A stretch of 64,000 nucleotides of DNA from Ginsengibacter hankyongi. Its GTDB lineage: Bacteria > Bacteroidota > Bacteroidia > Chitinophagales > Chitinophagaceae. Below, in pieces: positions 8,677 to 54,287 of the stretch. The translations under genes were made by a program, and so were the position numbers. Below the pieces are notes generated by a model. It did not search any database, was not told the DNA's origin, and saw nothing but the letters and a program-made list of their open reading frames with translations. The DNA is taken from assembly GCF_008710285.1 (NCBI RefSeq), contig NZ_VYQF01000001.1, positions 744,001 to 808,000 of the forward strand, written 5' to 3'. Each line of letters opens with the position of its first letter. Position 1 is the first letter of the stretch.

Positions 8677-8697
8677 AATGATCTTTTTTTCGGACGG

Positions 8698-9132: not shown

Positions 9133-9162
9133 TTCGTTTATTAGCAATTTCAAAAAATAAAA

Positions 9163-9579: not shown

Positions 9580-9594
9580 TTACACTAATTGAAT

Positions 9595-9652
9595 ATTACA
9601 CGAATTAGACAGCAGATAAATCTATTAGCGTATTCGTTCTAATTCGTGTAAT
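9595..9652. repeat. Inverted repeat with ACACGAATT core between convergent genes
   Basis: ATTACACGAATTAGA (9595-9609) and TCTAATTCGTGTAAT (9638-9652) are perfect 15-bp arms around a 28-nt centre. It lies between the convergent OsmC and DMT genes. The core recurs at 6874-6886 and 17753-17769. Confidence 0.8.
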
Positions 9653-9657
9653 GAGTT

Positions 9658-10539
9658 TTAGTTTTTCTGCAATTTCCTTTCCCTCCAAACTCTTGCCATT
9701 TGCAATGAAATCGCCAGCAGTATAAGACCAAAGCCAAAATAGAAACCCGGTCCAAGAAATTTATTTTCTTTGAAAATTATAAATGCCAGTATGATAGAAT
9801 ATATAGGTTCAAAATTGTAGGTAAGATTTACAGTAAAAGCTGAAATATATTTCAGGGCATTTAGACTTAAAATAAAAGCGAATACAGTACATATCCACGA
9901 TAAAATTAACAACCAAAACAAATCGGTGGAAGTTGGGACAAAATATCTGGCGGGAAAAAATTGCAGGTAAAACGGAATGATTAAACAAAGTGCAATAAAA
10001 CCACCGCTCATCTCATACAGCGTTACTATTTTAGGTGAGAATTCTTTCAGCAATGTTTTATTAAAAATCGGGAAAAGACAGGCAAGCAGCGCTGAAATAA
10101 TTCCAAAAATAATTCCTGTTTTATATTCAGGATAAAAATTAAATATGAGATAAATACCAGCAATAGCAAGCATTCCCAGCAACACTTCTGTATAATCAAT
10201 TCTTCTCTTCATTATTACCGGTTCAATAAAAGAAGTAAAAAACCCGATGGCAGAAAGGCAGGTTACAGATACCGAAACATTAGCATATTTTATACTTCCA
10301 TAAAAACTAACCCAATGAAGCGCAATAAGAGTTCCAACCCCAAAAAGTTTCATTGTATTTAAAAAAGAAATTCTAATAAGTTCTTTTCTCAACAATAAAA
10401 TTATAGCCAGTGTTATAGCACTGAATAACATTCGATACCAAACTAATATTCCTTCGTTTAAATTAATAAGCTTCCCAAGAATTGCTGTAAATCCCGCAAG
10501 TACTACGGCAACGTGTAGTTGAAGAAAAGCTTTTTTCAT
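9658..10539 (-). CDS. DMT superfamily transporter (EamA domains)
   Basis: A 293-residue integral membrane protein with about ten hydrophobic segments in two repeated halves, the standard EamA layout. The C-terminal half contains the family pattern LTYNFEPIYSIILAFIIFKEN, in which a proline-containing EP motif is followed by the exporter signature. Members export amino acids, drugs or metabolites. Substrate not predictable. A -7-like element (TATTTTTG, 10544-10551 minus) ends only 4 nt before the ATG, suggesting a leaderless transcript. Confidence 0.88.
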   Translation of the reverse strand: MKKAFLQLHVAVVLAGFTAILGKLINLNEGILVWYRMLFSAITLAIILLLRKELIRISFLNTMKLFGVGTLIALHWVSFYGSIKYANVSVSVTCLSAIGFFTSFIEPVIMKRRIDYTEVLLGMLAIAGIYLIFNFYPEYKTGIIFGIISALLACLFPIFNKTLLKEFSPKIVTLYEMSGGFIALCLIIPFYLQFFPARYFVPTSTDLFWLLILSWICTVFAFILSLNALKYISAFTVNLTYNFEPIYSIILAFIIFKENKFLGPGFYFGFGLILLAISLQMARVWRERKLQKN

Positions 10540-38792: not shown

Positions 38793-40355
38793 ATGCCCTA
38801 CTTCGATTTTCATTGCCACCCCGGCCTAAAGCCAACTTTTTCAGATCAAAAAAACGCAATATCACCCTGGTTGTTTATTGACGCCAAACTTGCGATTTTT
38901 AAAGACATCAAAATAAGCATCAATCCTTTGTTTAATGAGGTGTTAAACTCCCAAAGCTGCCTTGGGCAATTATATAAAGGTCACGTAAAATTATTTGGCA
39001 TAGCATTACATTCACCCGAAGCAAACATGGCAAAAGGGCTACTCGAAAAAAAAATCGTAAACAAGGGAGCTATTGCATTGCTAGATAAAAAGCGATTACA
39101 ACTTATTAATAGTGGCAACCATTACTTCGAATTATTGAATGAAGACCTTCAAAGAATTACTGAATCAAAAGCTCCTGCAGATCTAAACCGCGCAGCATTA
39201 AAAATCATAAAAAATTCAAATGATTTTAATGAAGATGATCCGGACACCATTTTTGCGTTTCTTATTGTTGAAGGATTACATTGCTTCTTTGACGATCAAA
39301 CAGCAACCAACGTTAAAGAAGTATTCACGAAAAACTTTGAAAGCTTTACGGATGCTAATACCATTTTTGCCATCAATATTTGTCATATACAGCAAAATTC
39401 ATTTTGCAATCATGCCTATGGAATTCAATTTATAAATCCCGGATATTTTTTCCCAACAAGATGCGGAATTTCAACATGGGGATTTGAAGTTATAAAACGA
39501 ATGCTTGAAAAAAAGATACTTACAGACATAAAGCACATGAGTCTTTTTTCGAGATGGCAATTATATAATTTATTGCGTGATCCGGCAGATTCAAATAAAT
39601 ACACTGCGCCGATTTTATGTACCCACGCCGGGCTTACCGGCCAACGGATGGAAAACCGGTTAAAATATATCCTTCGTGTACCCGCCGACGTTGGCCTGGT
39701 GTACGAGGTTGTTTATATGAAACCAAAAAGTCCTTACATAGATGAAGTATATTTCAATTGCAGCAGCATTAATTTATATGATGAAGATGTAGAGGCGATA
39801 TTACTTTCAGGCGGCTTAATCGGTTTGTCATTCGACCAACGTATACTCGGCTTTGCAGATGAAAATGTGTTACGTGATGTAACAGTTCCACACGACGTGG
39901 AATATATAAGTGAACTGGAAGCAAACTTTTTTTTCAATGGCGTTAACCCATCAAACATGAAGCCCTGGACGGATGATACTAAAATATGGACCTCTGAAGA
40001 TTTTGAAAATCTCGATCCTGCATTTGATTCCATACTTCATCCTCTATTTTTCCTAAACCAGGTAATTCACGTTTTAACTATTGCAAAAAATAACGCCAAT
40101 ATCGGAATACAAAAAGCAATGAAACAAGTTTGCCTTGGCACTGACTACGACGGACTGATTAATGCTATTGATAACTGCAAACATGTGGACCTGCTTGATG
40201 CTTTTAAAACATTAACCATCGCCAAAATGCCAAAGCTTTTGAATGATGCTAAGCTTGGTGATGAAGGAATCAATGTGAATGAATTCGCAGAAAATATTTT
40301 TTATAACAATGGCAAAAATTTTCTTCTAAACCGCTTGCGTGAAATAGGAAAATAG
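38793..40355 (+). CDS. Membrane dipeptidase-like protein (peptidase M19 family)
   Basis: A 520-residue protein related to renal dipeptidase/M19 amidohydrolases. Metal-binding His at the start (YFDFHCHPG), CTHAGLTGQ in the middle, and a C-terminal CLGTDYDGLINAI. The family usually has about 350-420 residues, and this protein has an extra insertion in the first third (about 90-180). There is no signal peptide, so it acts in the cytosol. The substrate may be a dipeptide or another amide. No neighbour clarifies the role. Confidence 0.75.
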   Translation: MPYFDFHCHPGLKPTFSDQKNAISPWLFIDAKLAIFKDIKISINPLFNEVLNSQSCLGQLYKGHVKLFGIALHSPEANMAKGLLEKKIVNKGAIALLDKKRLQLINSGNHYFELLNEDLQRITESKAPADLNRAALKIIKNSNDFNEDDPDTIFAFLIVEGLHCFFDDQTATNVKEVFTKNFESFTDANTIFAINICHIQQNSFCNHAYGIQFINPGYFFPTRCGISTWGFEVIKRMLEKKILTDIKHMSLFSRWQLYNLLRDPADSNKYTAPILCTHAGLTGQRMENRLKYILRVPADVGLVYEVVYMKPKSPYIDEVYFNCSSINLYDEDVEAILLSGGLIGLSFDQRILGFADENVLRDVTVPHDVEYISELEANFFFNGVNPSNMKPWTDDTKIWTSEDFENLDPAFDSILHPLFFLNQVIHVLTIAKNNANIGIQKAMKQVCLGTDYDGLINAIDNCKHVDLLDAFKTLTIAKMPKLLNDAKLGDEGINVNEFAENIFYNNGKNFLLNRLREIGK

Positions 40356-40515
40356 ATTAATTGTGTGGGCAATATCTTTTGTTATGTTGAAATATTTTGT
40401 ACACTTTCTTAAAACTTACAGCAATTTTTATTATATATAATAGCAAAACCAGCATTTGTTTTGAAACCAATTCCATCACAAGTCTTATTTTATATTCAGT
40501 ACTTTTAGTTTACGT

Positions 40516-41154
40516 ATGATTAATGATCATGAAATAAAAAATCTTTTTCCTTTATTTGAACGCAAGCTTTTGGAAGAAATTGAGAGTAATGCTGAAATAA
40601 TAGAATATGAAGAAGGCGAAGACCTGATAAAGAGTGGACAGAATATTAAATCTACCATGCTCATTAAAAAAGGATTGGTAAAAATTTACAGGGAAGATGA
40701 AGATGGGAATGAAATATTTATGTATCATTTAGAACCTGGCCAGGCCTGCGCATTATCAATATTATGTGCGGTTCAACACAAAACCAGCGAAATAAAAGCA
40801 ACAGCAGTTAAACCTACAGAAGTATATGCTATTCCTGTGCATTTAGTTGAGCAATGGATGAAAGAATACAAATCATGGTATCAATTTATTCTCTCAACTT
40901 ACCGGTCGCGGTTTGAAGAATTATTGAATACAATAGATGCGATAGCTTTCAAAAATATGGATGAAAGACTGGTAATGTATTTAAAAAAGCATTCAGAAAT
41001 TTCTAATAACAAAACAATTACCGTTACCCATGCGCAAATAGCAGCAGAACTTACCACATCAAGAGAGGTAGTTTCAAGATTGTTAAAAAAACTGGCAGAA
41101 AGAGGATTGATTAAAGTTAACCGGCAAAATATCGAAATCATTAATTTAGACTAA
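40516..41154 (+). CDS. Crp/Fnr family transcriptional regulator
   Basis: A 212-residue regulator: N-terminal cyclic-nucleotide-binding-type beta roll (about 25-120), dimer helix (about 122-150) and C-terminal winged helix (THAQIAAELTTSREVVSRLL). The recognition helix R183-E184-V-V-S187-R188 carries E-x-x-S-R as in FNR, which recognises TTGAT-N4-ATCAA. It lacks FNR's N-terminal four-cysteine cluster: the only cysteines, C78 and C84, lie in the roll, so the signal is probably not a classic 4Fe-4S. Five TGAT-N4-ATCA-like sites lie nearby, one just downstream before the TauE gene, supporting local control. Confidence 0.9.
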   Translation: MINDHEIKNLFPLFERKLLEEIESNAEIIEYEEGEDLIKSGQNIKSTMLIKKGLVKIYREDEDGNEIFMYHLEPGQACALSILCAVQHKTSEIKATAVKPTEVYAIPVHLVEQWMKEYKSWYQFILSTYRSRFEELLNTIDAIAFKNMDERLVMYLKKHSEISNNKTITVTHAQIAAELTTSREVVSRLLKKLAERGLIKVNRQNIEIINLD

Positions 41155-41163
41155 CACTAACTG

Positions 41164-41175
41164 TGACATATATCA
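41164..41175. promoter_or_regulatory. Crp/Fnr-type palindrome before the TauE gene
   Basis: TGACATATATCA, one base from TGAT-N4-ATCA. It sits 34 nt before the ATG at 41210 and directly after the Crp/Fnr gene. Confidence 0.5.
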
Positions 41176-41209
41176 CCATATTTTTAATAGATTAAAACCA
41201 AATTGCACG

Positions 41210-42010
41210 ATGCAAATTTTGGGCTATTTTGCTTCTTTACTAATAGGTATTTCATTAGGGTTGATTGGCGGTGGCGGATCAATCTTAACTGTGCCGGTAC
41301 TGGTTTATTTATTTAGTGTCAACCCTGTGTTGTCAACTTCCTATTCATTATTCATAGTTGGTTCCACAAGCCTCGTTGGCGCATTTAATAATTATCTTAA
41401 AGGGTTTGTACGAATAAAAACTGCCTTACTTTTTGGCATATCATCTATAACAACGGTGTTCCTTACACGCAAATTTTTAATACCACATATACCAGGGTAT
41501 TTTGGCTCAATAGGTAATTTTAAAATAACAGAGTCCATTCTTGTAATGGTATTGTTTGCCATACTTATGGTGGCTGCATCTTTATCGATGATAAACGACA
41601 GTAATAAAAAAATAAAAACTGAGGACGTCAGCAACAAAAAAATAAATCTTCCGAAGCTGTTGCTCTACGGCATTGCAATTGGCTTTGTTACCGGGCTTCT
41701 CGGCGCCGGCGGCGGTTTTTTATTAATTCCTACGCTTGTACTTCTTGTAAAATTACCAATGAAAGAAGCCGTTGGTACTTCTCTCTTTATAATAGCATTA
41801 AATTCTTTAATTGGTTTTACAGGCGATCTTGGTCATTTTAATATTGATTGGATTTTCCTTTTCAAAATAACTGCAATTGCTATCGCAGGAATTCTTATTG
41901 GCGGAGCATTAAATAAAAAAATTCATGGAGACCACTTAAAGAAAGGCTTTGGATGGTTTGTATTGATCATGGGTATCTACATAATTATCCATGAAACGTT
42001 GATAAAATAA
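41210..42010 (+). CDS. TauE/SafE family sulfite/sulfonate exporter-like protein
   Basis: A 266-residue inner-membrane protein with about eight spans in two homologous halves. Both halves begin with the glycine-rich TauE signature (GLIGGGGSILTVPVLVYLF and GLLGAGGGFLLIPTLVLLVK). These transporters export sulfite, sulfoacetate or similar anions. Being 55 nt downstream of the Crp/Fnr gene and behind a palindrome, it is probably under that regulator. It may belong functionally to the sulfur block at 32-36 kb. Substrate is inferred from the family. Confidence 0.88.
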   Translation: MQILGYFASLLIGISLGLIGGGGSILTVPVLVYLFSVNPVLSTSYSLFIVGSTSLVGAFNNYLKGFVRIKTALLFGISSITTVFLTRKFLIPHIPGYFGSIGNFKITESILVMVLFAILMVAASLSMINDSNKKIKTEDVSNKKINLPKLLLYGIAIGFVTGLLGAGGGFLLIPTLVLLVKLPMKEAVGTSLFIIALNSLIGFTGDLGHFNIDWIFLFKITAIAIAGILIGGALNKKIHGDHLKKGFGWFVLIMGIYIIIHETLIK

Positions 42011-42130: not shown

Positions 42131-43498
42131 TTATTCAGTTTTCAGATGTAAAGCCCTAGGTCTTACAAAAGCACGTAAGCCTGCGTGGGAAAGGGTTACG
42201 CCAAAGCCAGAGTGTTTTCTTCCACTCCAGGGAAGAGCAGCGCTCACCCTGTCACAACAATTCCAATAACCCGTTCCTGAATTTATGTGTTGCAAAATAT
42301 TTTCCGCTCTTGTTTTATTACTGCTATAAACAGAAGCAGTTAATCCATATTCCGTATCCTGCATTAGCTGGATGGCTTCATCATCATTTTTTACTTTCAT
42401 AATGCCAATAACCGGCCCAAAGGATTCATCTTTCATAACAAGCATTTCATGATTGACATTAGTAAGAATCGTTGGCTCAAAGTAATAACCTTTTCTATCA
42501 ATTCGTTTTCCACCAATTAGTATGTTCGCGCCTTTTTCCAATGCATCTTTAACTTGTTCTCCCAAAACATTAAGTTGTTCTTTTCTTGTTAGTGGCCCAA
42601 AATAAATTCCATCTTCCGTCGGCAAACCGCTTTTCCACGATTTCACTTCCTTAACAAACTCCTCAACATATTTATCATAAATTTTTTCATTCACATAAAT
42701 TCTTTCAACTGAACAACAACTTTGCCCGTTATTATAAAAAGCTCCGTCTGCAGTTGCCGCTGCAACTGATTTAATATCGGTAACATCCTCTGCAACATAC
42801 AAAGGATCCTTTCCACCCAGCTCACACTGGCATGGAAGCATTTTAGCAGCTACTTTTTCATAGATATATTTGCCTGTTTTATAAGAGCCTGTAAAAAAAT
42901 ATCCATCGAATGGAAGTTCCAGCAGCAACTCTCCAACCTCTTTTGCACCAACCGCTACATGAAAAATATTTTCGGGTAGCCCTGCCTGTTGCAATAGCTT
43001 TTCAATTTCTAATCCTGTAAGCGTGGCATATTCAGAAGGCTTATACATAACAGCATTACCAGCCAGCAAAGCCGGAACAAATACATTTACTCCTACGAGA
43101 TAAGGATAATTCCATGCAGAGATATTACAGATAACTCCCAAAGGTTCATAAGAAATTCTTTCTTCAAGCCCCTCTTCAAAATTCATTACTTCATCGGATA
43201 AATATTTTTCTGCATTACCTGTAAGCCATTTAATACGATTGATAACGCCATTAATTTCATTACGTGATTGTTGCAGTGGTTTACCAACTTCATTAGAAAG
43301 AGTAAGCGCAAGCTCTTCAATATTTCCTTTAAGAAGATTAGAAAACTTCTGTAGAACTCTTATTCGTTCCGGCAATGAAACCTTTTGCCAGGAAGGTTGA
43401 GCAGATTGTAATGATTGAATTTTTTTTTCTAAAGTTACTTTTGCATCCTCTTCAATTTCCCTGATGAGTTCTTCTGTTGCAGGGTTAATGATTTTCAT
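42131..43498 (-). CDS. NAD(P)-dependent aldehyde dehydrogenase (last gene of the gamma-glutamyl amine operon)
   Basis: A 455-residue ALDH superfamily enzyme. NAD binding: WNYPYLVGVNVFVPALLAGN. Catalytic Glu226 is in CELGGKD and the nucleophile C261 in NNGQSCCSVERIYV. The C-terminal bridging region WSGRKHSGFG is present. Length is somewhat below the usual 480-500. In this operon it would oxidise the aldehyde made by the Fe-alcohol dehydrogenase, for example gamma-glutamyl-aminoacetaldehyde to gamma-glutamylglycine. That substrate is inferred from the gene set. 10 nt after the hydrolase gene. Confidence 0.9.
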   Translation of the reverse strand: MKIINPATEELIREIEEDAKVTLEKKIQSLQSAQPSWQKVSLPERIRVLQKFSNLLKGNIEELALTLSNEVGKPLQQSRNEINGVINRIKWLTGNAEKYLSDEVMNFEEGLEERISYEPLGVICNISAWNYPYLVGVNVFVPALLAGNAVMYKPSEYATLTGLEIEKLLQQAGLPENIFHVAVGAKEVGELLLELPFDGYFFTGSYKTGKYIYEKVAAKMLPCQCELGGKDPLYVAEDVTDIKSVAAATADGAFYNNGQSCCSVERIYVNEKIYDKYVEEFVKEVKSWKSGLPTEDGIYFGPLTRKEQLNVLGEQVKDALEKGANILIGGKRIDRKGYYFEPTILTNVNHEMLVMKDESFGPVIGIMKVKNDDEAIQLMQDTEYGLTASVYSSNKTRAENILQHINSGTGYWNCCDRVSAALPWSGRKHSGFGVTLSHAGLRAFVRPRALHLKTE

Positions 43499-43508
43499 AA
43501 ATTATTTA

Positions 43509-44210
43509 TTAAATAGTTTGCCGAACTGTATCTATAAAATTATGTTTAATATTTTTTGCAAACCTGCTTTGCTGGTTTTCCATTCTTTCAGGATGCCATT
43601 GTACCAACATCAGGAATGATTTTCCTTCCGGCTCTCTTCTTTCTATTCCTTCAATTATTCCATCCGGTGATAGTGCATTTACCACGAGATCAAAACCTGG
43701 CATATCCACACTCTGATGATGAGCACTGTTTATCTCACCCTTTTCTTCGCCAATAATTTTATATAAAGCTGAATTGGGATCAACGCTAATTAAATGTTTC
43801 CTGTCATCACCTTCTTTAAATTTACCATGGTTAAATTTTCCAAATGCGGGAATATCAGGAACCAATGTGCCGCCAAAATAAACGTTTACAATTTGTAACC
43901 CCCGGCATATTCCTAAAAGAGGTTTTTGATTCTCCTGAGTGTATTTAATTATTTGCCATTCAAATTCATCCCTCTTTTCATCAATATCTTTTGGGTTAAC
44001 ATAAGCAAGAAAGTCAGGTTGGTTATACAACCTTGGATTTATATCATTTCCTCCCGATAATATAATTCCATTACATTTTTCAACATCTTTAAAATTATCC
44101 AGTAGATAACTCAATTTAATTATTTGCACTCCAGGCTCATCTTTGAACCAGTTTTCATAATTAAAATATTTAGAACCTTCACTAATACCAATAACAATAT
44201 TTTTCATCAA
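43509..44210 (-). CDS. Class I glutamine amidotransferase-like gamma-glutamyl hydrolase (PuuD-like)
   Basis: A 233-residue peptidase C26/class I GATase. The oxyanion segment is ILSGGNDINPRLY. Catalytic Cys102 is in LLGICRGLQIVN, and the His-Glu pair is in QWHPERM. Members such as PuuD split gamma-glutamyl-GABA into glutamate and GABA. In this operon it would release glutamate from the final gamma-glutamyl amino acid. The start is ATG-ATG (MMKN). It follows the alcohol dehydrogenase gene by 26 nt and precedes the aldehyde dehydrogenase gene by 10 nt, so the three are surely one transcript. Confidence 0.9.
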   Translation of the reverse strand: MMKNIVIGISEGSKYFNYENWFKDEPGVQIIKLSYLLDNFKDVEKCNGIILSGGNDINPRLYNQPDFLAYVNPKDIDEKRDEFEWQIIKYTQENQKPLLGICRGLQIVNVYFGGTLVPDIPAFGKFNHGKFKEGDDRKHLISVDPNSALYKIIGEEKGEINSAHHQSVDMPGFDLVVNALSPDGIIEGIERREPEGKSFLMLVQWHPERMENQQSRFAKNIKHNFIDTVRQTI

Positions 44211-44236
44211 TAAAATTTTAAAGTAAAAAACTCATC

Positions 44237-45385
44237 TTACAATGCGTTTAAATATAATTGTTTGAAATTTTCTCTGGTAACGGGTTTTGGATTATTAGGA
44301 TGAGCAAAATCCGCAATAGCAAGATCAGCCAATGTTTCTATGTGTTCTTCTTTTACACCAATATCACCGAGTCTGTTTGGGATGTTTATTTTAGAATTTA
44401 ACTCATGCAAATACTCAACAACTCCTTCCCCGTTTTCTTCTGTTAATTCGAGTGTTCTTGCTATTCGTTTAAATTTATGTTCAAATCCTTCAATATTGAA
44501 TTCCATACCATAAGGAATATTCACAGCATTTGCCAGGCCATGATGCGTATCCAGCAATGAAGATAAAGGATGCGCTAATGAATGTACCACGCCTAATCCT
44601 TTTTGAAAAGCAACGGCTCCCATCAATGAAGCGATGAGCATTTTACTTCGTGATTCAACGTCAGGATTCTTTACTGCTTTTACCAACGACTGGTTAATTA
44701 ATGAAATTCCTTCCAGGGCAATTCCATCACACATAGGATGTGGCATCTTTGCAAGAAACGCCTCCATATTATGGGTTAGTGCATCCATGCCGGTAGCAGC
44801 AGTAATAAACGGCGGTAATTCCATCGTTAATAACGGGTCAGCATAGACGATTTTAGCCAAAAGCTTCGGTGAAAAAAGGATTTTCTTTTGATGTGTTATC
44901 TCATCAGAAATGATAGCGCTTCTTCCGACTTCACTCCCGGTTCCGGCCGTAGTTGGGATAGTAATAAAATGCGGAACATCATTAGTAACATAAACATCAC
45001 CACCAATAAGATCATCATATTTAAAAAGATCTTCACGATGATTTACTCTTAATACAATAGCCCTTGCAACGTCTAAAGCAGCGCCACCTCCTATTCCAAT
45101 AACTGCATCACGATTTGTTGCATCATAAACATCTGTTCCATTATAAACGTCAGGCCTTATTGGATTTTTATGAATGTCATTAAATACCTCCGTTGAAATA
45201 TTTTTTTTCTTGAGGTCAGAAATAATTTCTTTAAAAAAATCTAATTGAGCAACATTTCGATCGGTAACAATAAGAGGCTTTAATAAATCATTTTTTAGTA
45301 AATAATCTCCCAGTTCTTTACTGGCTCCTGCACCAAAGCGAATGGTAGTTGGAAAATTGTATTGATAAATTTTGTCGAACTTCAT
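44237..45385 (-). CDS. Iron-containing (group III) alcohol dehydrogenase
   Basis: A 382-residue Fe-dependent alcohol dehydrogenase. NAD motif GIGGGAALDVARAI at about 97-110, then ITIPTTAGTGSEVG. Metal ligands D201 and H205 (GMDALTHNMEAF), H268 (GVVHSLAH) and H282 (THHGLANA) are all present. Expected here to oxidise a terminal alcohol such as gamma-glutamylethanolamide. A -7 element (TATCTTTG, 45412-45419 minus) in the 148-nt gap behind it suggests a second, internal promoter. The third gene of the operon. Confidence 0.92.
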   Translation of the reverse strand: MKFDKIYQYNFPTTIRFGAGASKELGDYLLKNDLLKPLIVTDRNVAQLDFFKEIISDLKKKNISTEVFNDIHKNPIRPDVYNGTDVYDATNRDAVIGIGGGAALDVARAIVLRVNHREDLFKYDDLIGGDVYVTNDVPHFITIPTTAGTGSEVGRSAIISDEITHQKKILFSPKLLAKIVYADPLLTMELPPFITAATGMDALTHNMEAFLAKMPHPMCDGIALEGISLINQSLVKAVKNPDVESRSKMLIASLMGAVAFQKGLGVVHSLAHPLSSLLDTHHGLANAVNIPYGMEFNIEGFEHKFKRIARTLELTEENGEGVVEYLHELNSKINIPNRLGDIGVKEEHIETLADLAIADFAHPNNPKPVTRENFKQLYLNAL

Positions 45386-45411
45386 TTAGAAATTTATTTA
45401 AAGGATTTGGG

Positions 45412-45419
45412 CAAAGATA
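45412..45419 (-). promoter_or_regulatory. Internal -7 element before the Fe-alcohol dehydrogenase
   Basis: Minus strand TATCTTTG (TAnnTTTG), 26 nt before the ATG, in the 148-nt gap between the ligase and dehydrogenase genes. No -33 TTG seen. Confidence 0.4.
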
Positions 45420-45533
45420 CATAAGGATAAAAGGTAAGAAGTAGCCGTGAATATTTGTTTAAGTTTTCATAATAGAGCGTTAACAAATCTTCCTGGCCTT
45501 GAACCGTGATTCTGCAGGTAATAAAATCGGATC

Positions 45534-46892
45534 TTATATAATCTCAAAATATCTTTTATACTCCCAATCAGTAACAGCCTTCAAATGTTGCCTCCACTCC
45601 CATTCACGGGTTTGAACAAAGTGTTCAACAAATTTTTCTCCTAAAATTTCATTCGCAACTTCTGATTGTTTCATCATCTTCGTAGCCTCATCTAATGTTT
45701 TAGGAAGCGTTCCGTTTGAATAATCTTTATAACCATTTCCAACAGTAGCAGGTTGTTTTAATTTTAATTTATTTTTTATTCCATACAAACCAGATGCCAG
45801 TGAAGCGGCCATTGCTAAATAAGGGTTTACATCTGAACCTATGACTCTTGTTTCCAGCCTGCAGGATTTATTGCTTAATGACAAAACCCGCAAAGCAACA
45901 GTTCTGTTGTCAACTCCCCAGGTGAGTGTAGTGGGAGCCCACGCTCCTTCTACCAGCCGTTTATAACTATTAATTACTGGAGCAAACATGGGCAAAATAT
46001 AAGGAAGACAATACAACTGTCCTGCTATATAATTTTTCATAATACTACTCATCTTCATCTCATCCTTTTCATTATAAAAAAGATTTTTTTTCCCGTTCTT
46101 ATCCCATAAACTTTGATGCACATGCCCACCGCAACCGGGAAGATTCTCATTAATTTTAGCCATGAAGGTGGCCATACAGCCATGCATGTACGCAATTTCT
46201 TTTACGGATGTCTTAAACACTACTGCCCTGTCTGCGGCTTCAACAATTTCAGAATAATTAATAGCCGCTTCATAAGTACCCGGACCAGTTTCGGTATGCA
46301 AGCCCTCTAATGGAACCCCAAATTTGTTGAGGAAATCGAAAAGATCAGTGAAATATGGATTTTCTAGGGAGCTTCTTAGGATGGAATATCCAAACATACC
46401 CGGCGTGAGCGGCGTTAGATTTTTGAATTGCTTTTCGTGAACACTTTGCGGAGTTTCTGCAAAATTGTACCACTCAAATTCCTGTGAAAAATATGGCAGG
46501 TAACCCAGACCGTTAGCATCCTTCAAAACTTTTTTCAATAATTGCCTTGGGCAAACTGATGATGGCTTATTGTTATTATCTACCATTTCACCCAGAAAAA
46601 AAGGGACATCATTTTCCCATGGGATTTTCCTGAAAGTAGATAAGTCTATTTTAGCAGGCGCATCGGGATACCCTGTTTGCCAGCCCGTGTAAGCAACATT
46701 ATCATAAGCCACATCGTTTGAATCCCATCCGAAGATGACGTCACAAAAGCCCGTATGGCCATCAATTACCGAAAGAAATTTTTCTGTTGAAATATATTTA
46801 CCACGCAATATGCCATCAATATCAGTTAATGCAATCTTTACTTTTCCTGAGGGGTGATCTTTTACGTATTGAATGATTTCTTCTATATTCAT
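45534..46892 (-). CDS. Glutamine-synthetase-like gamma-glutamyl amide ligase
   Basis: A 452-residue member of the glutamine synthetase family. Metal- and ATP-site motifs are present (EWYNFAETPQ, EGLHTETGPGTYEAAI, GCGGHVHQSLWDKNGKKNLF, NRTVALRVLS, SCRLETRVIGSDVNPYLAMA). Length and neighbours fit the PuuA/GlnA4/IpuC group that joins glutamate to an amine such as putrescine, ethanolamine or isopropylamine, rather than to ammonia. The adjacent gene is an ethanolamine-type permease, which favours an amino alcohol. A true housekeeping GlnA is less likely in this setting, since the standard Bacteroidota GlnA is larger (GSIII type) or of another subgroup. Confidence 0.87.
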   Translation of the reverse strand: MNIEEIIQYVKDHPSGKVKIALTDIDGILRGKYISTEKFLSVIDGHTGFCDVIFGWDSNDVAYDNVAYTGWQTGYPDAPAKIDLSTFRKIPWENDVPFFLGEMVDNNNKPSSVCPRQLLKKVLKDANGLGYLPYFSQEFEWYNFAETPQSVHEKQFKNLTPLTPGMFGYSILRSSLENPYFTDLFDFLNKFGVPLEGLHTETGPGTYEAAINYSEIVEAADRAVVFKTSVKEIAYMHGCMATFMAKINENLPGCGGHVHQSLWDKNGKKNLFYNEKDEMKMSSIMKNYIAGQLYCLPYILPMFAPVINSYKRLVEGAWAPTTLTWGVDNRTVALRVLSLSNKSCRLETRVIGSDVNPYLAMAASLASGLYGIKNKLKLKQPATVGNGYKDYSNGTLPKTLDEATKMMKQSEVANEILGEKFVEHFVQTREWEWRQHLKAVTDWEYKRYFEII

Positions 46893-46930
46893 ATAATTTC
46901 ATTGATGAAAATTAAAAATAATAAACGTTC

Positions 46931-48246
46931 TTATTTCTTAATTACTTTAAACGCACCATAACAAACTCCGATAATCACCAAATAGATCATCGCAAGTTGT
47001 AAATTAAAAATCGTCATTGCAACAAACGATACAATTGCAATTACTAAAGCTGAAACGGGAAATAAAGGATACATCGGCACTTTAAAAGGGCGAACCATCT
47101 GTGCTTCTTTTTTTCTTAATTGTAAAAGAGAGACCATAGATATTATGTATAACGTTAGCGCACCAAATACTGAAATGGTTATAATCTCTGCTGTTTTGCC
47201 TGTAAGCAACGCAATTATTCCAATGACCATATTAATCAATAATGCATTGGAGGGTGTCCTAAATTTTGAATGAATTTTACCAATAAATGCCGGCGCAAAT
47301 TTCACTCTTCCAAATTCGAAAACAGACCTTCCGACAGCTAAAATAATTCCATGAAAAGATGCAATTAATCCAAACAACCCAACCGCAATTAATAAGTGAT
47401 ACATTACATGATTGCTCCCTACAATATGGCTCAAAGCCAATGGCAGTGGCGAATCTGAAGAAGTACCATCTGATTTATAAACTATAGCTTCCCACCCCGC
47501 AACACCGATTGAAGATGCAAAAGTTAATACACATAAAATAACCAATGTAAGAATAGCAGAACCAAATCCAATTAAAATAGTTCGTTGAGGATTGATCGCC
47601 TCTTCTGCAACATTGGCAACACCTTCTATAGCGAGAAAAAACCAAATAGCAAAAGGAATAGCTGCAAAAATTCCCATCCATCCGTGAGGCAATGCATTAT
47701 GTTGCAAATTTTGAAATCGAAATGAGGAATAGTTATACCTGTAAATAACAATAACTCGCCTACTGCTAAAATTGTTATAGCCAATTCAAACATTGCAGCA
47801 GCCTTCACACCATAGATATTTAAGGCAGTAAAAACTACATAAGCAAAGATGGCAATTGCAATAACAGGTATCTGTGGAAAGAATAAATTAAAATAAGCGC
47901 CGATTGCAAAAGCAATAGCAGGAGGAGCAAAAATAAATTCAATATTTTGGGCCATACCTGCCACAAAGCCTAAGTCTTTTCCGAGTGCACGTGCAGCATA
48001 ATCAAATGCGCCACCGGCTTTAGGTATAGCACAGGCTAATTCAGCATAACTGAATGTGAATGTGACATACATAATGATGATAAAAAATGTAGCAATAGCC
48101 AAACCTAACGTACCCCCTTCTTCAAGTCCCAGGTTCCATCCGAAATACATTCCAGAAATAACGTACCCAACACCAAGGCCCCACAACATAGCAGGTGAGA
48201 GTGTACGCTTTAATTCAGCGGGATGAGGCTTTGGTAATAAAGACAT
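46931..48246 (-). pseudogene. Ethanolamine-type APC permease, interrupted by a one-base frameshift
   Basis: Two overlapping frames encode successive parts of one APC transporter: 48246 to 47626 (MSLLPKPHPAELKRTLSPAM) and 47707 to 46931 (reading QHNALPHGWMGIFAAIPFAI). The first contains FGWNLGLEEGGTLG and IEFIFAPPAIAFAIGAY. The second contains IWFFLAIEGVANVAEEAINP. Together they match the ethanolamine permease (Eat) family over about 440 residues. One added T in the run at 47709-47712 (A on the coding strand) would restore HFDFKNLQHNALPHGWMG. Hence either a sequencing slip, a phase-variable run or a recent mutation. It is the first gene of the gamma-glutamyl amine operon, 38 nt before the ligase. 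Confidence 0.85.
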
Positions 48247-49291: not shown

Positions 49292-50092
49292 ATGAAACTG
49301 TTCAACAACAAAGCACTGCTATTAATTGCCCTGATCTTGATAAGCGGATATGGCTATATAGCGAGTTGTACTCATAAAGATTTGATTCTTCCAGACCAGT
49401 CCACCGGCACTGTTATTATTAACCGCGGTAATAGCGTTTTTCTGCCCGGCACCGAAACCAAGGGCGATACAACCCAATGGAAAATGGACAAGGTACATTC
49501 CAGCGTTCTTTGGTCAGGTGACTACCTTCAACAGGGGGCCCTGCTTACAGGCCGCTTTAACATGTTTGGACTAAATAGTCTTCCATCTTCTGCAAGACAG
49601 CTTTACGTTACAAAAGGTCAGCCCGTGCTGGATACTTCATGGGCGTTCTATGAAAACGATCCGACAAAAACTTATTTTGCCGGCTATGTTCAAATGAATA
49701 CCTCTAATACAGGAGAACCCGGAAGAGACGGAAATTGTTATTTAGGCTATGTAGCTGCACCCAAAATAATCACCGGCACACAGAACCTCCAGGACTCCAA
49801 CGTAGCTGTTATCAGAACTACCAAAGTGGAATTTGATACAAAAAGTCCGGGCTATATCGTTACGATGGTAATGAGTTGGAAGGGTTTACTTTCCGCCCCC
49901 CATGACACAACAATAAATGGTACACTTTCTTATGTAAAAAGGTCAACAATTGATGCGGGTACAGCGAAAGCCTATGACGTATTTGGTTTGCAACTAAACT
50001 TTAAGTTCAACTGCCGATCCTTTGGAATGACTACTGACGAAATATCAGATATTGTTTCGGTTCAATGTAACATAAATTTCAATAATCTATAA
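49292..50092 (+). CDS. YceI-like (lipocalin-fold) lipoprotein, module A
   Basis: A 266-residue lipoprotein with lipid Cys26 (ASCTHKDLILPD). Residues about 64-110 carry a YceI-like start (QWKMDKVHSSVLWSGDYLQQ followed by LLTGRFNMFG). The rest forms beta strands with VEFDTKSPGYIVTMVMSWKG and ends NINFNNL. YceI proteins bind isoprenoid or other lipophilic molecules. The match is at the motif level and distant. It is the first gene of module A, 21 nt before a CX4CH lipoprotein, and is placed where module B has the haem lipoprotein at 52481. An FNR-type palindrome lies 68 nt upstream. Confidence 0.7.
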   Translation: MKLFNNKALLLIALILISGYGYIASCTHKDLILPDQSTGTVIINRGNSVFLPGTETKGDTTQWKMDKVHSSVLWSGDYLQQGALLTGRFNMFGLNSLPSSARQLYVTKGQPVLDTSWAFYENDPTKTYFAGYVQMNTSNTGEPGRDGNCYLGYVAAPKIITGTQNLQDSNVAVIRTTKVEFDTKSPGYIVTMVMSWKGLLSAPHDTTINGTLSYVKRSTIDAGTAKAYDVFGLQLNFKFNCRSFGMTTDEISDIVSVQCNINFNNL

Positions 50093-50113
50093 TTACTCAA
50101 AAACTTAATTATA

Positions 50114-50488
50114 ATGAAACGATTATTAATATACGCAGGATTGCTGTTCTTTACGAGTTTTGTCTTGAGCAGTTGCTACAAGGATGTGATTCTACCTGCT
50201 GTTGCTAACACCAAGCCGCCTCAATACGTAAGTTTTAGCACCGATCTCCAGCCCATTTTTACCGCAAATTGTGCTTTGTCCGGTTGTCATGTAAAAGGTT
50301 CTCAGGCTCCTTATTTAAGTGCTGATGTTTCTTACCAACAGCTTTTGGGAGGATTTGTGAATACGATAAAGCCAGAGCAAAGTGAGCTGTACCAACAAAT
50401 AAACGGAAACATGCAGGTACACATTCCCAATGCTGATGACAGACGAAAAATTTATGACTGGATAAGAAATGGCGCTCCTAACAATTAA
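50114..50488 (+). CDS. Small haem-lipoprotein with CX4CH motif, module A
   Basis: A 124-residue lipoprotein with lipid Cys21 (LSSCYKDVILPAV). The single haem-like motif is C53-A-L-S-G-C58-H59 (CX4CH), longer than the usual CXXCH. The segment FSTDLQPIFTANCALSGCHV and the Met-containing NGNMQVHIP near the C-terminus (possible axial ligand) resemble small Bacteroidota cytochrome-like lipoproteins. It lies between the YceI-like and DUF5777 genes, as its paralogue at 53889 lies between the EB_dh-type and DUF5777 genes. Confidence 0.78.
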   Translation: MKRLLIYAGLLFFTSFVLSSCYKDVILPAVANTKPPQYVSFSTDLQPIFTANCALSGCHVKGSQAPYLSADVSYQQLLGGFVNTIKPEQSELYQQINGNMQVHIPNADDRRKIYDWIRNGAPNN

Positions 50489-50511
50489 GTGATCCCAAAA
50501 AAATTAATCAA

Positions 50512-51492
50512 ATGAAAAGAATTAGTTATACATCAAAAAGGCAATTGAAATTTTGCGCTTATATAACGGTTTTACTGTTTATGGCAACCAGTGCAGGTTT
50601 TGCCCAGGCTGACAGTACCGCTGATGCAATACAAACAGATGCGCCAGTTCCAATGAAACATAAGCCTGTAAAGAATACATTTAATAGTGTATGGATATTG
50701 GATAATCAAACCGTAATGGTTCCCGTGAAGGGGACTTTCGAAGCGGATATTCAGCACCGGTTTGGAACAGTTGAAAATGGTGCCAAAGATGTTTGGGGTA
50801 TCTATGCTTCAGCTAACATGCGCATCGGCTTTAATTATGCCCCCGTCAATAATTTGTATCTTGGTTTTGGGCTTACAAAGAACGATTTGCTGTGGGATGG
50901 AAGCGCAAAATATGCTATAATAAAGCAGACAAAGGGCAAATATCCTGTAAGTGTTACGTATTATGGAAATATAGGTTATAAGTCGATTGCAGATCCAAGT
51001 CATTTTTTGTTTACTTATCAAACGGAACGCTTCTCGTTTTTTAACGAGTTGCTGGTGGCCCGCAAGGTCAGCGATAAATTATCGGTACAGGTTGGAGCAG
51101 GCATATCTCATCAAAATTCGGTTCCGGGTTATTATGCTCAGAAAGATACTACCACATTTATATATAAAAAACAGAAGTTTGACATGTTTACAGCATCTGT
51201 ATGCGCAAGGTATCAATTAACGGGCGTCACAGCAATTATTATCGGCTACGATCAGCCTCTTACAAGGTTTCCGACAGATAACCCACATCCTAACCTGGCA
51301 TTCGGCTTTGAGTTTAACACCAGTGGACACACCTTTCAGTTGTTTGCAGGAAACTATTCCTTGCTGAACCCTCAACAAAATAGTCTATACAACGCAAACA
51401 ACCCCTTTGGATTTACTCAAACAGGTGGCACAAAAGTGAAAGGTGGTCAATTCTTGATTGGTTTTAATATTACCAGGTTGTGGAACTTTTAA
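50512..51492 (+). CDS. DUF5777 family outer-membrane beta-barrel protein, module A
   Basis: A 326-residue protein with a signal peptide (hydrophobic core about 16-30, then GFAQA). The body is strand-rich, with the family segments LDNQTVMVPVKGTFEADIQH, FGTVENGAKDVWGIYASANM and PVSVTYYGN, and the end GGQFLIGFNITRLWNF, whose terminal Phe suits outer-membrane insertion. It is paralogous to the protein at 54298. Role unknown. Its partners suggest a channel for an electron-transfer or substrate-uptake lipoprotein set. A terminator-like hairpin (51548-51577) follows. Confidence 0.85.
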   Translation: MKRISYTSKRQLKFCAYITVLLFMATSAGFAQADSTADAIQTDAPVPMKHKPVKNTFNSVWILDNQTVMVPVKGTFEADIQHRFGTVENGAKDVWGIYASANMRIGFNYAPVNNLYLGFGLTKNDLLWDGSAKYAIIKQTKGKYPVSVTYYGNIGYKSIADPSHFLFTYQTERFSFFNELLVARKVSDKLSVQVGAGISHQNSVPGYYAQKDTTTFIYKKQKFDMFTASVCARYQLTGVTAIIIGYDQPLTRFPTDNPHPNLAFGFEFNTSGHTFQLFAGNYSLLNPQQNSLYNANNPFGFTQTGGTKVKGGQFLIGFNITRLWNF

Positions 51493-51547
51493 TTATAATA
51501 TAAATATTGTGCTTATATAAATAAAGCGACAATCTCAAAACTAGGGG

Positions 51548-51577
51548 ACCCTTAATTCAATTGCAATTCAGGGTTCT
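51548..51577 (+). terminator. Probable terminator after module A
   Basis: GACCCTTAATT and AATTCAGGGTTC can pair with one mismatch around a short AT loop, followed by TTTATTTTA. Position approximate. Confidence 0.55.
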
Positions 51578-51669
51578 TTATTTTATGATTGCTTCGGTAA
51601 TAAGTATAGCTTCCAACTTAGTTGCTACTAGAGTAAAAGTAATAATAGAAAGTTTTCAACTCTCTTTCC

Positions 51670-52200
51670 GTGAGCAAAAATGTTACCATAATAATTCCTT
51701 ATCAAATCCTCACGTATTGCATATTGACAATATTTATGCTCACTTCATCATGTTCTGAAAACTATGAAAAAAATAATAAGCAGAAAGAGGAAATCCCAAA
51801 AAGAAAGCCATCGAACATAAAAAAGCCAGCATCCAGTTTTAATGATACCATTAAGGTTACAGTTAAATCAGCTGTATTTTACAGTCCCGATTCGCTACAA
51901 ATGGAAAAAATAAAAGCAGTGAACGAAAAAGCCATTTTTGATATGCTCACTCACAATTGTTATTATCAAATGGAAAATGCGAGGATAGAGCTTAAAAAAT
52001 ATTGGCCTCAAATACATATTGTTGAAGTTTCAATGGCCCGTTACCTGATATTTATAAAAGCCAATGAAAGTAAAATATGTATTGACCTCAATAACAAGAA
52101 CGACATATGTGGCTTATTTCTTTTTGACGGGAAAAAGGATCCTGTACTTGTTGACATGCCAAACATTGACACTGAGCTCGGATTTTATTTTAAAAAATAG
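51670..52200 (+). CDS. Lipoprotein of unknown function
   Basis: A 176-residue protein starting with GTG at 51670. A hydrophobic span ends in a lipobox-like TSSC (Cys28), then SENYEKNNKQ. The mature part (about 50-176) is a small mixed fold with KVTVKSAVFYSPDSLQ, NCYYQMENARIELKKYWPQI and FIKANESKICIDLNNKNDIC. No family recognised. It sits alone between modules A and B, and no link to electron transfer is visible in the sequence. An ATG at 51736 inside the signal region is possible but would cut off the signal. Confidence 0.6.
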   Translation: MSKNVTIIIPYQILTYCILTIFMLTSSCSENYEKNNKQKEEIPKRKPSNIKKPASSFNDTIKVTVKSAVFYSPDSLQMEKIKAVNEKAIFDMLTHNCYYQMENARIELKKYWPQIHIVEVSMARYLIFIKANESKICIDLNNKNDICGLFLFDGKKDPVLVDMPNIDTELGFYFKK

Positions 52201-52351
52201 ATGAATTCATCTTTCATAACAATAAAGCATACACGTAAATATTCTGCTCTTTGTTTATAATATCATCCAGACAAATTTCGAATGGGATTCTATAATTATC
52301 AGATTTTAAATAGTTAATGATTTCTTCAACTTGTAATCAACTTTTAAGTTA

Positions 52352-52363
52352 TGATCAAAATCA
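52352..52363. promoter_or_regulatory. FNR-type palindrome before module B
   Basis: TGATCAAAATCA, perfect TGAT-N4-ATCA, 117 nt before the ATG at 52481. No convincing -7 element at the expected distance. Confidence 0.5.
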
Positions 52364-52480
52364 CATTTAGGAATGATTAACCTCACAAAATTTTATTTTA
52401 ACCATTTATATTTTTACGCATTCTTAAAACAAGGTAATTATCTACAACTGCTTAAGATTTAAATTATTAAAATAACAAAT

Positions 52481-53857
52481 ATGAAAATGTTTCAACAAAA
52501 GTCATTTTGGATACTGACTTCGTTCGTTTTATTTGTAGGTTATTGGATAAGCTGTACCAAACACGACCAAATACTTACGGTTAATAATACTTCAGATAAT
52601 TCAACAACCCTCCAATCCATTAAGGTAACAACACCACCTACCATTGATGGCACAATTGACGCATCCTGGGCTAATGCAACAAAACTAAATATTTTGCCAA
52701 CGGTACCCGATCCGGGAAACGGATTGTTTTCGGGCTACAGCGGTCAGCAATATCCTGCAACTATCCGCTCTATGTATGATGATCAAAATATTTATTTTTT
52801 AGTTGAAATTAAAGATCCAACTCAAAGTGTAAATGTTGCACCCTGGTATTTTGATCCTGCAAAGAATGTTACCGGAAAAACAGGATGGCAAAAAGAACCT
52901 AATAATGATTCATACGATGCAAACGGAGCTTTATCAAGAGTTGGCTTCGGTGAAGATAGAATTGCCATGCTTTGGAATATTGATAATTCAACTCCAAAAT
53001 TCGTCTCGCAAACCTGCTATTCAAGCTGCCACATATTTACGCCATATATGGATTATTCTAAAGATCCGGCAGTTTATACAGCAAATGCCAGTGGTAACCA
53101 TTATACTAACGGTGCATCTGAAAAAATTGATATGTGGTGGGGCCGCTTAGGTTATATGAGTAAAGATGCGTCGCTTCATTTTGTGGATGACAACTACCAG
53201 GATTGGGCTGGTGGCCCAACTTATACTAATGTTACAGGTGGTAATGGAAACGGAAGGCACGTGGATGGCATTTATCCGGACGGCACAAAATCCAAAACCT
53301 GGCCCTATCGTCCAAATTACACGTCATCTCCAACACAAGGTGAAGTTAATAATTCGCAAAATTTCTATTTTTCTCATAAGGTGGATACTGTGACAGTTAA
53401 GGATACTGTTTCCGTTCCAGTTTGGGTAATCCCGGGAGCCGGGAGTGCTGGTTATATTTTAGTGGCAGATACGGCAAGTGGAAAAGCCAAAAAAGTAACT
53501 CAGTTGGATATAAAGACCGGTGTCTTGACTTTAAGTGATGGTTCAACAATTGATCCTAATGTAGGTACCGATTATCAAAAATCAAGCGGTGCTACAGGAG
53601 CTACTGCAAAAAATTCAATTCCAGGCTATATTGGAGTTCCCTTAATCGGGGGAAGAGCCGATATAACCGGCGCTGCTGTTTATACCGGTACTGGTTGGAT
53701 TGTTGAATACAAGCGTGCATTAAAGACCGGGGATGTATTAAAACAGGACATTGATTTTTCAAGTTTGCAAGACCAGGTATTTGGAGTGGCGATTTGGAAC
53801 AATTCAAATTACCAGCATGGCATTCAACCAAACTTAACCCTCACGTTTAAGAAATAA
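52481..53857 (+). CDS. Ethylbenzene-dehydrogenase-related (EB_dh) haem lipoprotein, module B
   Basis: A 458-residue lipoprotein with lipid Cys25 (WISCTKHDQILTV). Residues about 45-115 start the EB_dh fold (PPTIDGTIDASWANATKL, then TIRSMYDDQNIYFLVEIKDP). A haem motif C179-Y-S-S-C183-H184 (CX3CH) follows, with IDMWWGRLGY about 45 residues later as in EB_dh-related cytochromes. The C-terminal half closes the sandwich (FGVAIWNNSNYQHG). This family includes periplasmic haem-b or haem-c electron carriers associated with molybdoenzymes. No molybdoenzyme is encoded here. First gene of module B, 31 nt before the CX4CH protein. Confidence 0.82.
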   Translation: MKMFQQKSFWILTSFVLFVGYWISCTKHDQILTVNNTSDNSTTLQSIKVTTPPTIDGTIDASWANATKLNILPTVPDPGNGLFSGYSGQQYPATIRSMYDDQNIYFLVEIKDPTQSVNVAPWYFDPAKNVTGKTGWQKEPNNDSYDANGALSRVGFGEDRIAMLWNIDNSTPKFVSQTCYSSCHIFTPYMDYSKDPAVYTANASGNHYTNGASEKIDMWWGRLGYMSKDASLHFVDDNYQDWAGGPTYTNVTGGNGNGRHVDGIYPDGTKSKTWPYRPNYTSSPTQGEVNNSQNFYFSHKVDTVTVKDTVSVPVWVIPGAGSAGYILVADTASGKAKKVTQLDIKTGVLTLSDGSTIDPNVGTDYQKSSGATGATAKNSIPGYIGVPLIGGRADITGAAVYTGTGWIVEYKRALKTGDVLKQDIDFSSLQDQVFGVAIWNNSNYQHGIQPNLTLTFKK

Positions 53858-53888
53858 TCCTGGCGACTTAATAATTAAAACAACAATC

Positions 53889-54287
53889 ATGTCGAAGATA
53901 ATAATAGGAATAGGATTGTTATTTATTGCTGCGCTGGTGGTTACGATAGCTGGTTGTTCCAAAACAACAACCGTTCTTTTAGATAACTCTCCTGCCATAA
54001 CAGAGACGGTTCAATTCTCCAAAACCATTGTTCCGATATTAACCAAAAGCTGCGCTACAAGTGGTTGCCATAGTGGAAGCGTTGCTCCTAATTTAACTGA
54101 GACAAATGCATATAATTCATTAGTGTCAGGTCACTATCTTAATCTTTCAGATCCTCCAAGCAGTGAAGTATACCTATGGCTAACAGGAAAAAAAGGTGCA
54201 GCAATGCCTCTTGGCAGTGCTAATAATCCTTCAAATATAAATGCATTAATACTTGCCTGGATTAAACAAGGCGCAAAAAACAATTAA
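53889..54287 (+). CDS. Small haem-lipoprotein with CX4CH motif, module B
   Basis: A 132-residue lipoprotein with lipid Cys23 (TIAGCSKTTT). The haem-like motif is C55-A-T-S-G-C60-H61 (CX4CH), and GAAMPLG later supplies a Met that could be the sixth ligand. It aligns with the module A protein at 50114, including the FSKTIVPILTKSCATSGCHS segment and a final WIKQGAKNN against WIRNGAPNN. Likely a periplasmic or outer-membrane electron carrier. It is followed after 10 nt by the DUF5777 barrel. Confidence 0.78.
   Translation: MSKIIIGIGLLFIAALVVTIAGCSKTTTVLLDNSPAITETVQFSKTIVPILTKSCATSGCHSGSVAPNLTETNAYNSLVSGHYLNLSDPPSSEVYLWLTGKKGAAMPLGSANNPSNINALILAWIKQGAKNN

Follow-up and report, generated by a model that had tools for sequence, protein, structure and literature searches.

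Membrane-lipid breakdown yields ethanolamine as a main product, and the eut lyase is cobalamin-dependent. A whole pathway by glutamylation has already been proposed for Streptomyces and Chromohalobacter (PMC6529630) and, together with proteomics, for Phaeobacter (PMC10132767), the latter source noting a close relationship of the Phaeobacter sp. MED193 operon to Chromohalobacter salexigens and Agrobacterium tumefaciens genes. Here we analyse five genes of Ginsengibacter hankyongi, situated in a stretch of 64,000 nucleotides (the window), that on comparison of sequences probably form a catabolic operon for ethanolamine, with glutamylation, two oxidations and hydrolysis leading to glycine and glutamate. 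An earlier sequence-only reading of the window had advanced this pathway idea, and the idea is favoured by the present analysis; that reading understated the precedent, however, since what stood proposed in both sources was the whole pathway and not the GlnA4 step only.

Gene content, order and conservation

The genes for permease, glutamine synthetase (GS)-like ligase, Fe-alcohol dehydrogenase (Fe-ADH), C26 hydrolase and aldehyde dehydrogenase (ALDH) form a set on the minus strand, laid out as follows.

47626..48246, minus strand: APC-family permease for ethanolamine (Eat-type), N-terminal half, 206 aa; TIGR00908 positions 4-174, 203 bits; the ORF ends after a frameshift
46931..47707, minus strand: C-terminal half of the same Eat-type permease, 258 aa, in another frame; TIGR00908 positions 187-427, 240 bits
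45534..46892, minus strand: GS-like ligase, 452 aa, predicted gamma-glutamyl-ethanolamide synthetase; PF00120 (Gln-synt_C), 328 bits
44237..45385, minus strand: Fe-ADH, 382 aa, predicted gamma-glutamyl-ethanolamide dehydrogenase; PF00465 and PF25137
43509..44210, minus strand: Peptidase_C26 protein (class-I GATase fold), 233 aa, predicted gamma-glutamylglycine hydrolase; PF07722, 152 bits; Cys102, H206 and E208
42131..43498, minus strand: ALDH, 455 aa, predicted to oxidise gamma-glutamyl-aminoacetaldehyde; PF00171 (Aldedh), 431 bits; E226 and C261

The ORF coordinates, together with a Pfam scan of nine ORFs of the window, bear out the sequence-only reading in its same-strand ligase, Fe-ADH, C26 hydrolase and ALDH, in the gaps of 38 (behind the second permease ORF), 148, 26 and 10 nt, and in the positions claimed for ALDH E226/C261 and C26 Cys102. 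The C26 gene has a TTG start, with ATG as the next codon. Where that reading had a single intact permease gene and a complete operon, the permease is in fact split over two overlapping ORFs in different frames, each matching one half of TIGR00908, and the same two pieces were recovered in a search of the strain's own genome. Because of this frameshift, the operon is incomplete as sequenced.

A long match of the ligase type was found in 37 of 147 genomes of the family (own genome included; G112 adds a contig-end fragment). All five genes in the same order were detected in 20 of these 37 family loci, a count that takes in L037 and L052 (each with a gene truncated at the contig end) and L044 (broken ligase reading), and four further loci agree as far as their contig ends. 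Among the named Bacteroidota loci the number is 52 of 80, including L101 (permease cut by the contig end) and L093 (ALDH in two pieces). The earlier reading had staked itself on joint conservation of the five genes in relatives, and this holds, though in 13 of the 37 family loci the ligase stands apart from any such operon. The operon is thus real and conserved, and the conserved gene order means that the arrangement is not due to chance. A link of the operon to the downstream genes for an M19-type peptidase, a CRP-type regulator and TauE was considered and dropped, since the 37 family loci gave no match to any of the three. All five genes occur in named Bacteroidota such as Pedobacter, Chitinophaga, Niabella, Solitalea, Olivibacter, Parapedobacter, Emticicia, Lacihabitans and Aquirufa, so the glutamylation route to ethanolamine use, independent of the eut lyase, could be more widespread than the surveyed literature describes. 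Among the papers listed in a literature survey, none has a title or opening of the abstract that concerns the five-gene operon in Bacteroidota.

The permease is a single open frame in all 87 relative loci that hold both halves (84 distinct records, three records being common to the family and named locus sets), which rules out programmed frameshifting as an explanation of the split. The three relatives' permeases tested all exceeded the TIGR00908 cut-off of 381.75 (439, 420 and 430 bits), a threshold set for the whole protein, whereas the two permease halves of the window were scanned apart. As sequenced, uptake would be broken, and one may ask whether the operon in this strain is a decaying remnant and not a working pathway, a view compatible with ethanolamine as the operon's purpose. 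We regard it as unlikely. The remaining four reading frames are open, with crude dN/dS values of 0.03-0.11 against the nearest relative L089 (dS near saturation) that indicate strong constraint, and the permease halves give 0.02-0.05 in the same comparison and under the same reservation about dS. With all genes so constrained, both permease halves among them, the frameshift represents either a recent loss or a sequencing error. Moreover, S. coelicolor is described in PMC6529630 as using ethanolamine although it has neither an Eat nor an EutH homologue.

The ligase and its relatives

Aligned with E. coli GlnA, the ligase retains the residues of the metal and ATP-phosphate sites and the two Arg that bind glutamate; at the flap position, E327 in GlnA, it carries Trp in place of the flap Glu of a true glutamine synthetase. 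With metal and ATP positions kept and the flap Glu replaced, it presents an altered ammonia site in a GS-fold ligase. The flap residue is Trp in PauA7 and Phe in the GlnA4 model, according to PMC6529630. Pro at the position aligned to N264 in the glutamate site of GlnA speaks against the ethanolamine reading; the position aligned to GSI D50 falls in a gappy region and was left unused. Might the ligase be an ordinary glutamine synthetase, placed by chance in a dehydrogenase operon? Of the NCBIfam models it matches TIGR00653 GlnA best, and the only further PF00120 match of the genome lies in a 741-aa frame, the size of a GSIII. The 237 bits reached lie far under the GlnA cut-off of 429, however, the flap residue is Trp, and most of the family is without this ligase type, all of which makes an ordinary glutamine synthetase highly improbable. 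On the ethanolamine reading, a gene that is easily mistaken for a glutamine synthetase would gain a likely function.

A route of the Puu type, acting on putrescine or other polyamines, is likewise highly improbable. GS-like ligase, ALDH and C26 hydrolase are indeed three of the Puu enzyme types, but the ligase is 28.5% identical to E. coli PuuA and reaches 203 bits on the gamma-glutamylputrescine synthetase model (cut-off 650), the hydrolase reaches 50 bits on the PuuD model (cut-off 266), and the nine ORFs include a Fe-ADH in place of any PuuB-like oxidase or PuuE-like aminotransferase.

The nearest ligases with a specific annotated name are the IpuC pair (40.4% and 37.6% identity), the ethanolamine-type ligases being more distant at 33.3-35.9%. 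Substrate transfer by ligase homology alone would therefore be unsafe. The tree comprised 76 rows (the window, 35 of 37 family loci, 23 of 80 named loci, 15 references and 2 partial PDB chains; L044 was left out of the alignment for its broken ligase reading and L035, cut by a contig end, out of the tree). In this tree, which is without GlnA4, the window ligase lies outside the clade of ethanolamine-type (Paracoccus-type) ligases, the two forming separate starred groups. E. coli GlnA and PuuA sit on very long branches and the joins of the IpuC pair and the ethanolamine group are flagged as possibly false, and the conclusions rest on the groups themselves, not on deep branching order. The ethanolamine reading would thereby add a second ligase clade for assay and comparison of amine specificity.

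IpuC belongs to a pathway running through gamma-glutamyl-alaninol, and its proximity to the window ligase raises the alternative that the same reaction chain serves another primary amino alcohol (e.g., alaninol, 3-aminopropanol), in which case ethanolamine would be a side substrate at most. The set of ADH, ALDH and hydrolase would suit any primary amino alcohol. We consider this alternative distinctly unlikely, given that the nine ORFs, in contrast to IpuC clusters, contain no P450 or other monooxygenase, and that the relatives' permeases belong to the ethanolamine permease equivalog and are common to the Paracoccus-type ligase in two loci, L200 and L201. Both of these have a Paracoccus-type ligase and ALDH in one run with a permease whose parts show 71-74% and 65-66% identity to the two permease halves of the window; the run in L200 reads ligase, SDR, ALDH, GATase and permease, with 457 bits for the permease on TIGR00908.

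The ligase family as a whole is not bound to ethanolamine, seeing that its members are found operon-free not only in the 13 family loci above but also in 12 of 12 loci with a window-type ligase fetched outside the family (from 33 such matches). No viral relatives of the ligase were found in a search for them. As a separate observation, relatives carry an uncharacterised trio of ligase, unknown protein and HAD; the unknown protein has no Pfam, NCBIfam or credible PDB match, and the trio may be more novel than the operon.

Proposed pathway for ethanolamine

An amino alcohol, and ethanolamine in particular, is favoured by the Eat-family permease, by the pairing of Fe-ADH with ALDH, by the lack of any amine oxidase, aminotransferase or monooxygenase in the nine ORFs, and by the absence of EutB from the genome. 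Of the two absences claimed previously, that of a PuuE-like aminotransferase was confirmed within those nine ORFs and that of a eut ammonia-lyase for EutB, which had no match in the genome, in a search that matched E. coli only among 14 controls. The observations concern gene families, their order and conservation, active-site residues and kinship; from these we infer the following scheme of substrate and enzymatic steps, and any working of the operon in this strain is equally inferred. The Eat-type permease would import ethanolamine, and the GS-like ligase, spending ATP, would couple the amine of ethanolamine to glutamate at the gamma-carboxyl. Fe-ADH would convert the resulting gamma-glutamyl-ethanolamide into the aldehyde, to be oxidised by ALDH to gamma-glutamylglycine, from which the C26 hydrolase would release glycine and regenerate glutamate. 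From there the glycine could feed the glycine cleavage system; the P protein of that system (glycine decarboxylase) is present in the genome.

Gene neighbourhoods of the dehydrogenases are largely consistent with this scheme. Among the plasmid matches listed, 7 of 12 for ADH and 9 of 12 for ALDH adjoin, by coordinates, GS-like ligase matches, Paracoccus denitrificans supplying four entries in each list, which are thus not independent; the remaining 5 ADH and 3 ALDH matches lend no such support, which counts against ethanolamine. In P. denitrificans the cluster runs RpiR, FGase, three TRAP genes, ligase, ALDH and Fe-ADH, the order that PMC10132767 gives for the Phaeobacter operon, and the proteins of the latter increase on phosphorylethanolamine. 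Eight Bacteroidota loci have a Paracoccus-type ligase, with an ALDH match nearby in seven, ADH in two and Eat permease in two. Formylglutamate-amidohydrolase queries found no match in 20 Bacteroidota loci, these eight included, and for this reason both Bacteroidota cassettes may lack a hydrolase of that type.

Comparison with known systems

The Phaeobacter sp. MED193 operon, as presented in PMC10132767, resembles the present one in having a ligase, alcohol- and aldehyde-oxidising dehydrogenases, a glycine-freeing hydrolase and an ethanolamine transporter, but it differs in its TRAP transporter and RpiR regulator. The Paracoccus cluster, syntenic with it, has a hydrolase of the formylglutamate-amidohydrolase type instead of C26, and a ligase from another clade. 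For the GlnA4 (SCO1613) pathway of S. coelicolor, the same sequence of glutamylation, two oxidations and hydrolysis to glycine and glutamate is proposed, and the GSI flap Glu is lost as here; its hydrolase, however, comes from the formylglutamate amidohydrolase family, and S. coelicolor has no permease gene (PMC6529630).

Clusters of IpuC, the gamma-glutamylisopropylamide synthetase of Paenarthrobacter aurescens TC1 plasmids, contain GATase-type hydrolases as this operon does, along with P450, ferredoxin and SDR, none of which occurs here. A plasmid cluster of Legionella lytica (L082) assembles the same enzyme types (GS, ALDH, Fe-ADH and a 'GMP synthase', i.e. GATase), with a ligase 44.5% identical to that of the window and placed in the sister clade of the tree, but the gene order is another and no permease is listed beside the cluster. 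E. coli PuuA-PuuD share the logic of glutamylation, oxidation and hydrolysis and the C26 kind of hydrolase; their amine oxidase and aminotransferase types, unlike these, are without counterpart among the ORFs scanned, and PuuA is the distant ligase noted above.

The chemistry is therefore known from other bacteria, and what is found here appears to be a variant of it, with another ligase clade and with C26 in place of the formylglutamate-amidohydrolase type, two departures that, like the permease frameshift, also weigh against ethanolamine. As a tentative proposal, for which we would claim somewhat less than an even chance, a second gamma-glutamyl-ethanolamine pathway arose in Bacteroidota when a separate branch of GS-like ligases and a hydrolase of the C26 type were recruited to join an Eat permease, one that elsewhere in Bacteroidota is paired with the Paracoccus-type ethanolamine ligase. 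Two ligase clades would then have come to serve the same step, one of them diverted elsewhere into the trio with unknown protein and HAD.

The operon, its permease and its conservation

From its sequence, the window operon, conserved among Bacteroidota, probably encodes a variant of a pathway already described and is predicted to convert ethanolamine to glycine via gamma-glutamyl intermediates; in the window sequence its permease is broken. The region comprises the following features:

42131-48246, minus strand: permease, GS-like ligase, Fe-ADH, C26 hydrolase and aldehyde dehydrogenase (ALDH) genes
47626-47707, minus strand: overlap of two permease ORFs
38793-42010, plus strand: downstream genes for an M19-type peptidase, a CRP/FNR-type regulator and a TauE/SafE transporter (Pfam)
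49292-54287, plus strand: upstream run of ORFs with lipoprotein-like starts (by eye, from the ORF list), two of them short and carrying a possible heme-binding C-x4-C-H motif (also by eye)

The four enzyme genes lie where the sequence-only reading had placed them, with gaps of 38, 148, 26 and 10 nt in the ORF list, and belong by Pfam to Gln-synt_C, Fe-ADH, Peptidase_C26 and Aldedh; the active-site residues claimed for them, E226 and C261 in the ALDH and Cys102 in the C26 hydrolase, are present. To call the operon complete was too strong, given a permease frameshifted in the window sequence into ORFs of 206 and 258 aa in different frames. Each half matches the corresponding part of the ethanolamine permease model TIGR00908, and a search of the host assembly (33 contigs, 5.5 Mb) returned the same two pieces at 241 and 200 bits, the other matches listed reaching at most 98 bits. 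All 87 relative loci with both halves (23 from the family set and 64 from the named set; 84 distinct records, three being common to both) have a single open frame. Measured against L089, the nearest relative, the two halves show the same constraint as the other operon genes, with synonymous sites near saturation. The open frame in relatives, together with this constraint, argues that the lesion is either recent or else a sequencing error.

Among 147 genomes of the window's family, Chitinophagaceae (own included), a search with the ligase gave matches in 48 at E ≤ 0.001; these comprise 37 genomes with a long window-type match (own included), one with a contig-end fragment (G112), and 10 with weak matches only, most of these in GSIII-sized frames. 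The family set consists of 37 ligase loci with neighbourhoods from 36 genomes other than the host's. All five genes were detected in the same order in 20 of the 37, counting L037 and L052 (gene cut by a contig end) and L044 (ligase in two pieces); four more (L035, L046, L058, L061) are consistent with the operon up to contig ends, and 13 carry the ligase without it. The downstream peptidase, regulator and transporter genes of the window had no match across the 37 loci. In the wider collection, at least 576 stretches encode a relative. The best 80 form the named set: 52 show all five genes (including L101, where the permease is cut, and L093, whose ALDH is in two pieces), nine have only the ligase, and the remaining 19 show other partial combinations, several with contig ends nearby. 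Further apparent frame breaks affect relatives' operons at L044 (1937-3276, ligase) and L093 (10426-11782, ALDH).

Ligase chemistry and occurrence outside the operon

Aligned to E. coli GlnA, the window ligase retains the residues at the metal and ATP-phosphate sites and at R321/R359, and has Pro in place of N264. In the 26 of 77 alignment rows considered, the E327 flap position is Trp in the window ligase as in IpuC and the proteobacterial rows; in the ethanolamine-type rows, so labelled from gene neighbourhood and papers rather than from assays of those rows, it is Phe in five of six and Trp in Thermomicrobium. PuuA has Tyr, and a published study describes a comparable loss at the flap in GlnA4 and PauA7 (PMC6529630). 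The ligase scores far under the NCBIfam cut-offs for both GlnA and gamma-glutamylputrescine synthetase. Because ligases of this type are found outside the operon as well, homology of the ligase alone does not fix the substrate.

A conserved trio combines a window-type ligase, a protein of ~335-390 aa and a HAD-IIA hydrolase (L038 6702-10347, L204-L215 and others). Beyond the family there were 33 window-type matches; the 12 loci examined from these all contain both partners (in L214 the HAD lies ~2 kb further off). Of the 13 operon-less family loci, 11 have the ~335-390-aa protein and 10 have the HAD. That protein gave no Pfam, NCBIfam or credible PDB match among the members scanned, its DWNIGNF and RWDYDWFR motifs are invariant in eight aligned members, and by eye it looks kinase-like. 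The trio is possibly more novel than the ethanolamine operon. At L126, L128, L134 and L157 (~5700-9820; three Emticicia, one Cytophagaceae MAG), the ligase has a 401-aa ORF on one side and a membrane-protein-like ORF of 442-444 aa on the other, and the operon is absent.

Evidence for ethanolamine

The pairing of Fe-ADH with ALDH is consistent with an amine that bears a primary alcohol. Pfam found no amine oxidase, aminotransferase or monooxygenase among the nine ORFs scanned, and the genome search gave no EutB match. Glycine decarboxylase is present in the genome, and glycine from the operon would be used through it. Ethanolamine as substrate is more firmly supported than the sequence-only reading could know, from relatives' permeases, plasmid neighbours and two Bacteroidota loci, L200 and L201. 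The TIGR00908 cut-off was passed by relatives' permeases in three of three tested. Plasmid matches numbered 1518 records for the ADH and 3381 for the ALDH, neighbours being judged by coordinates on the 12 listed for each: seven ADH matches (Legionella, Photobacterium GJ3, four P. denitrificans records, Paracoccus TOH) and nine ALDH matches (two Photobacterium, P. versutus, four P. denitrificans, Legionella, Sinorhizobium K101) adjoin GS-like ligase matches, the four P. denitrificans records being non-independent. The Shinella PSBB067 ADH match lies ~107 kb from its best ligase match. The P. denitrificans cluster runs RpiR, FGase, two TRAP permeases, TRAP binding protein, ligase, ALDH and Fe-ADH; a published study of Phaeobacter MED193 reports an operon of the same order, enzymes that increase on phosphorylethanolamine, and a TRAP binding protein that binds ethanolamine (PMC10132767).

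In L200 and L201, a Paracoccus-type ligase (43% and 46% identity to its Paracoccus counterpart), an ALDH and a permease form one run, the permease parts being 71-74% and 65-66% identical to the window halves; the transporter is thus common to two ligase types. The L200 permease scores 457 bits on TIGR00908. Both loci present an alternative cassette in the window's order, with all five genes identified in L200 (6962-12480: Paracoccus-type ligase, SDR, ALDH, GATase hydrolase, Eat permease) and only the ligase, ALDH and permease in L201.

Relation to known systems

The pathway is less novel than had been implied, its chemistry being already known. Bacteroidota ligases form one group in the tree (100/96), beside a proteobacterial group (100/99) containing a Legionella lytica plasmid cluster of GS, ALDH, Fe-ADH and a GATase-type gene. 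A separate group (100/99) unites the ethanolamine-type ligases (P. denitrificans, S. meliloti, R. conchae, T. roseum, 5dm3, 11zs), and the two IpuC make a third (100/99). With these two IpuC the window ligase shares 40.4% and 37.6% identity, and with the ethanolamine-type rows 33.3-35.9%. Both the P. denitrificans operon and that of S. meliloti have RpiR-type genes alongside, whereas no regulator was recognised in the eight protein clusters present in at least 4 of the 37 family loci. Queries of the formylglutamate-amidohydrolase type had no match in 20 Bacteroidota loci: where the known pathway employs a hydrolase of that type, the window operon encodes a C26 enzyme.
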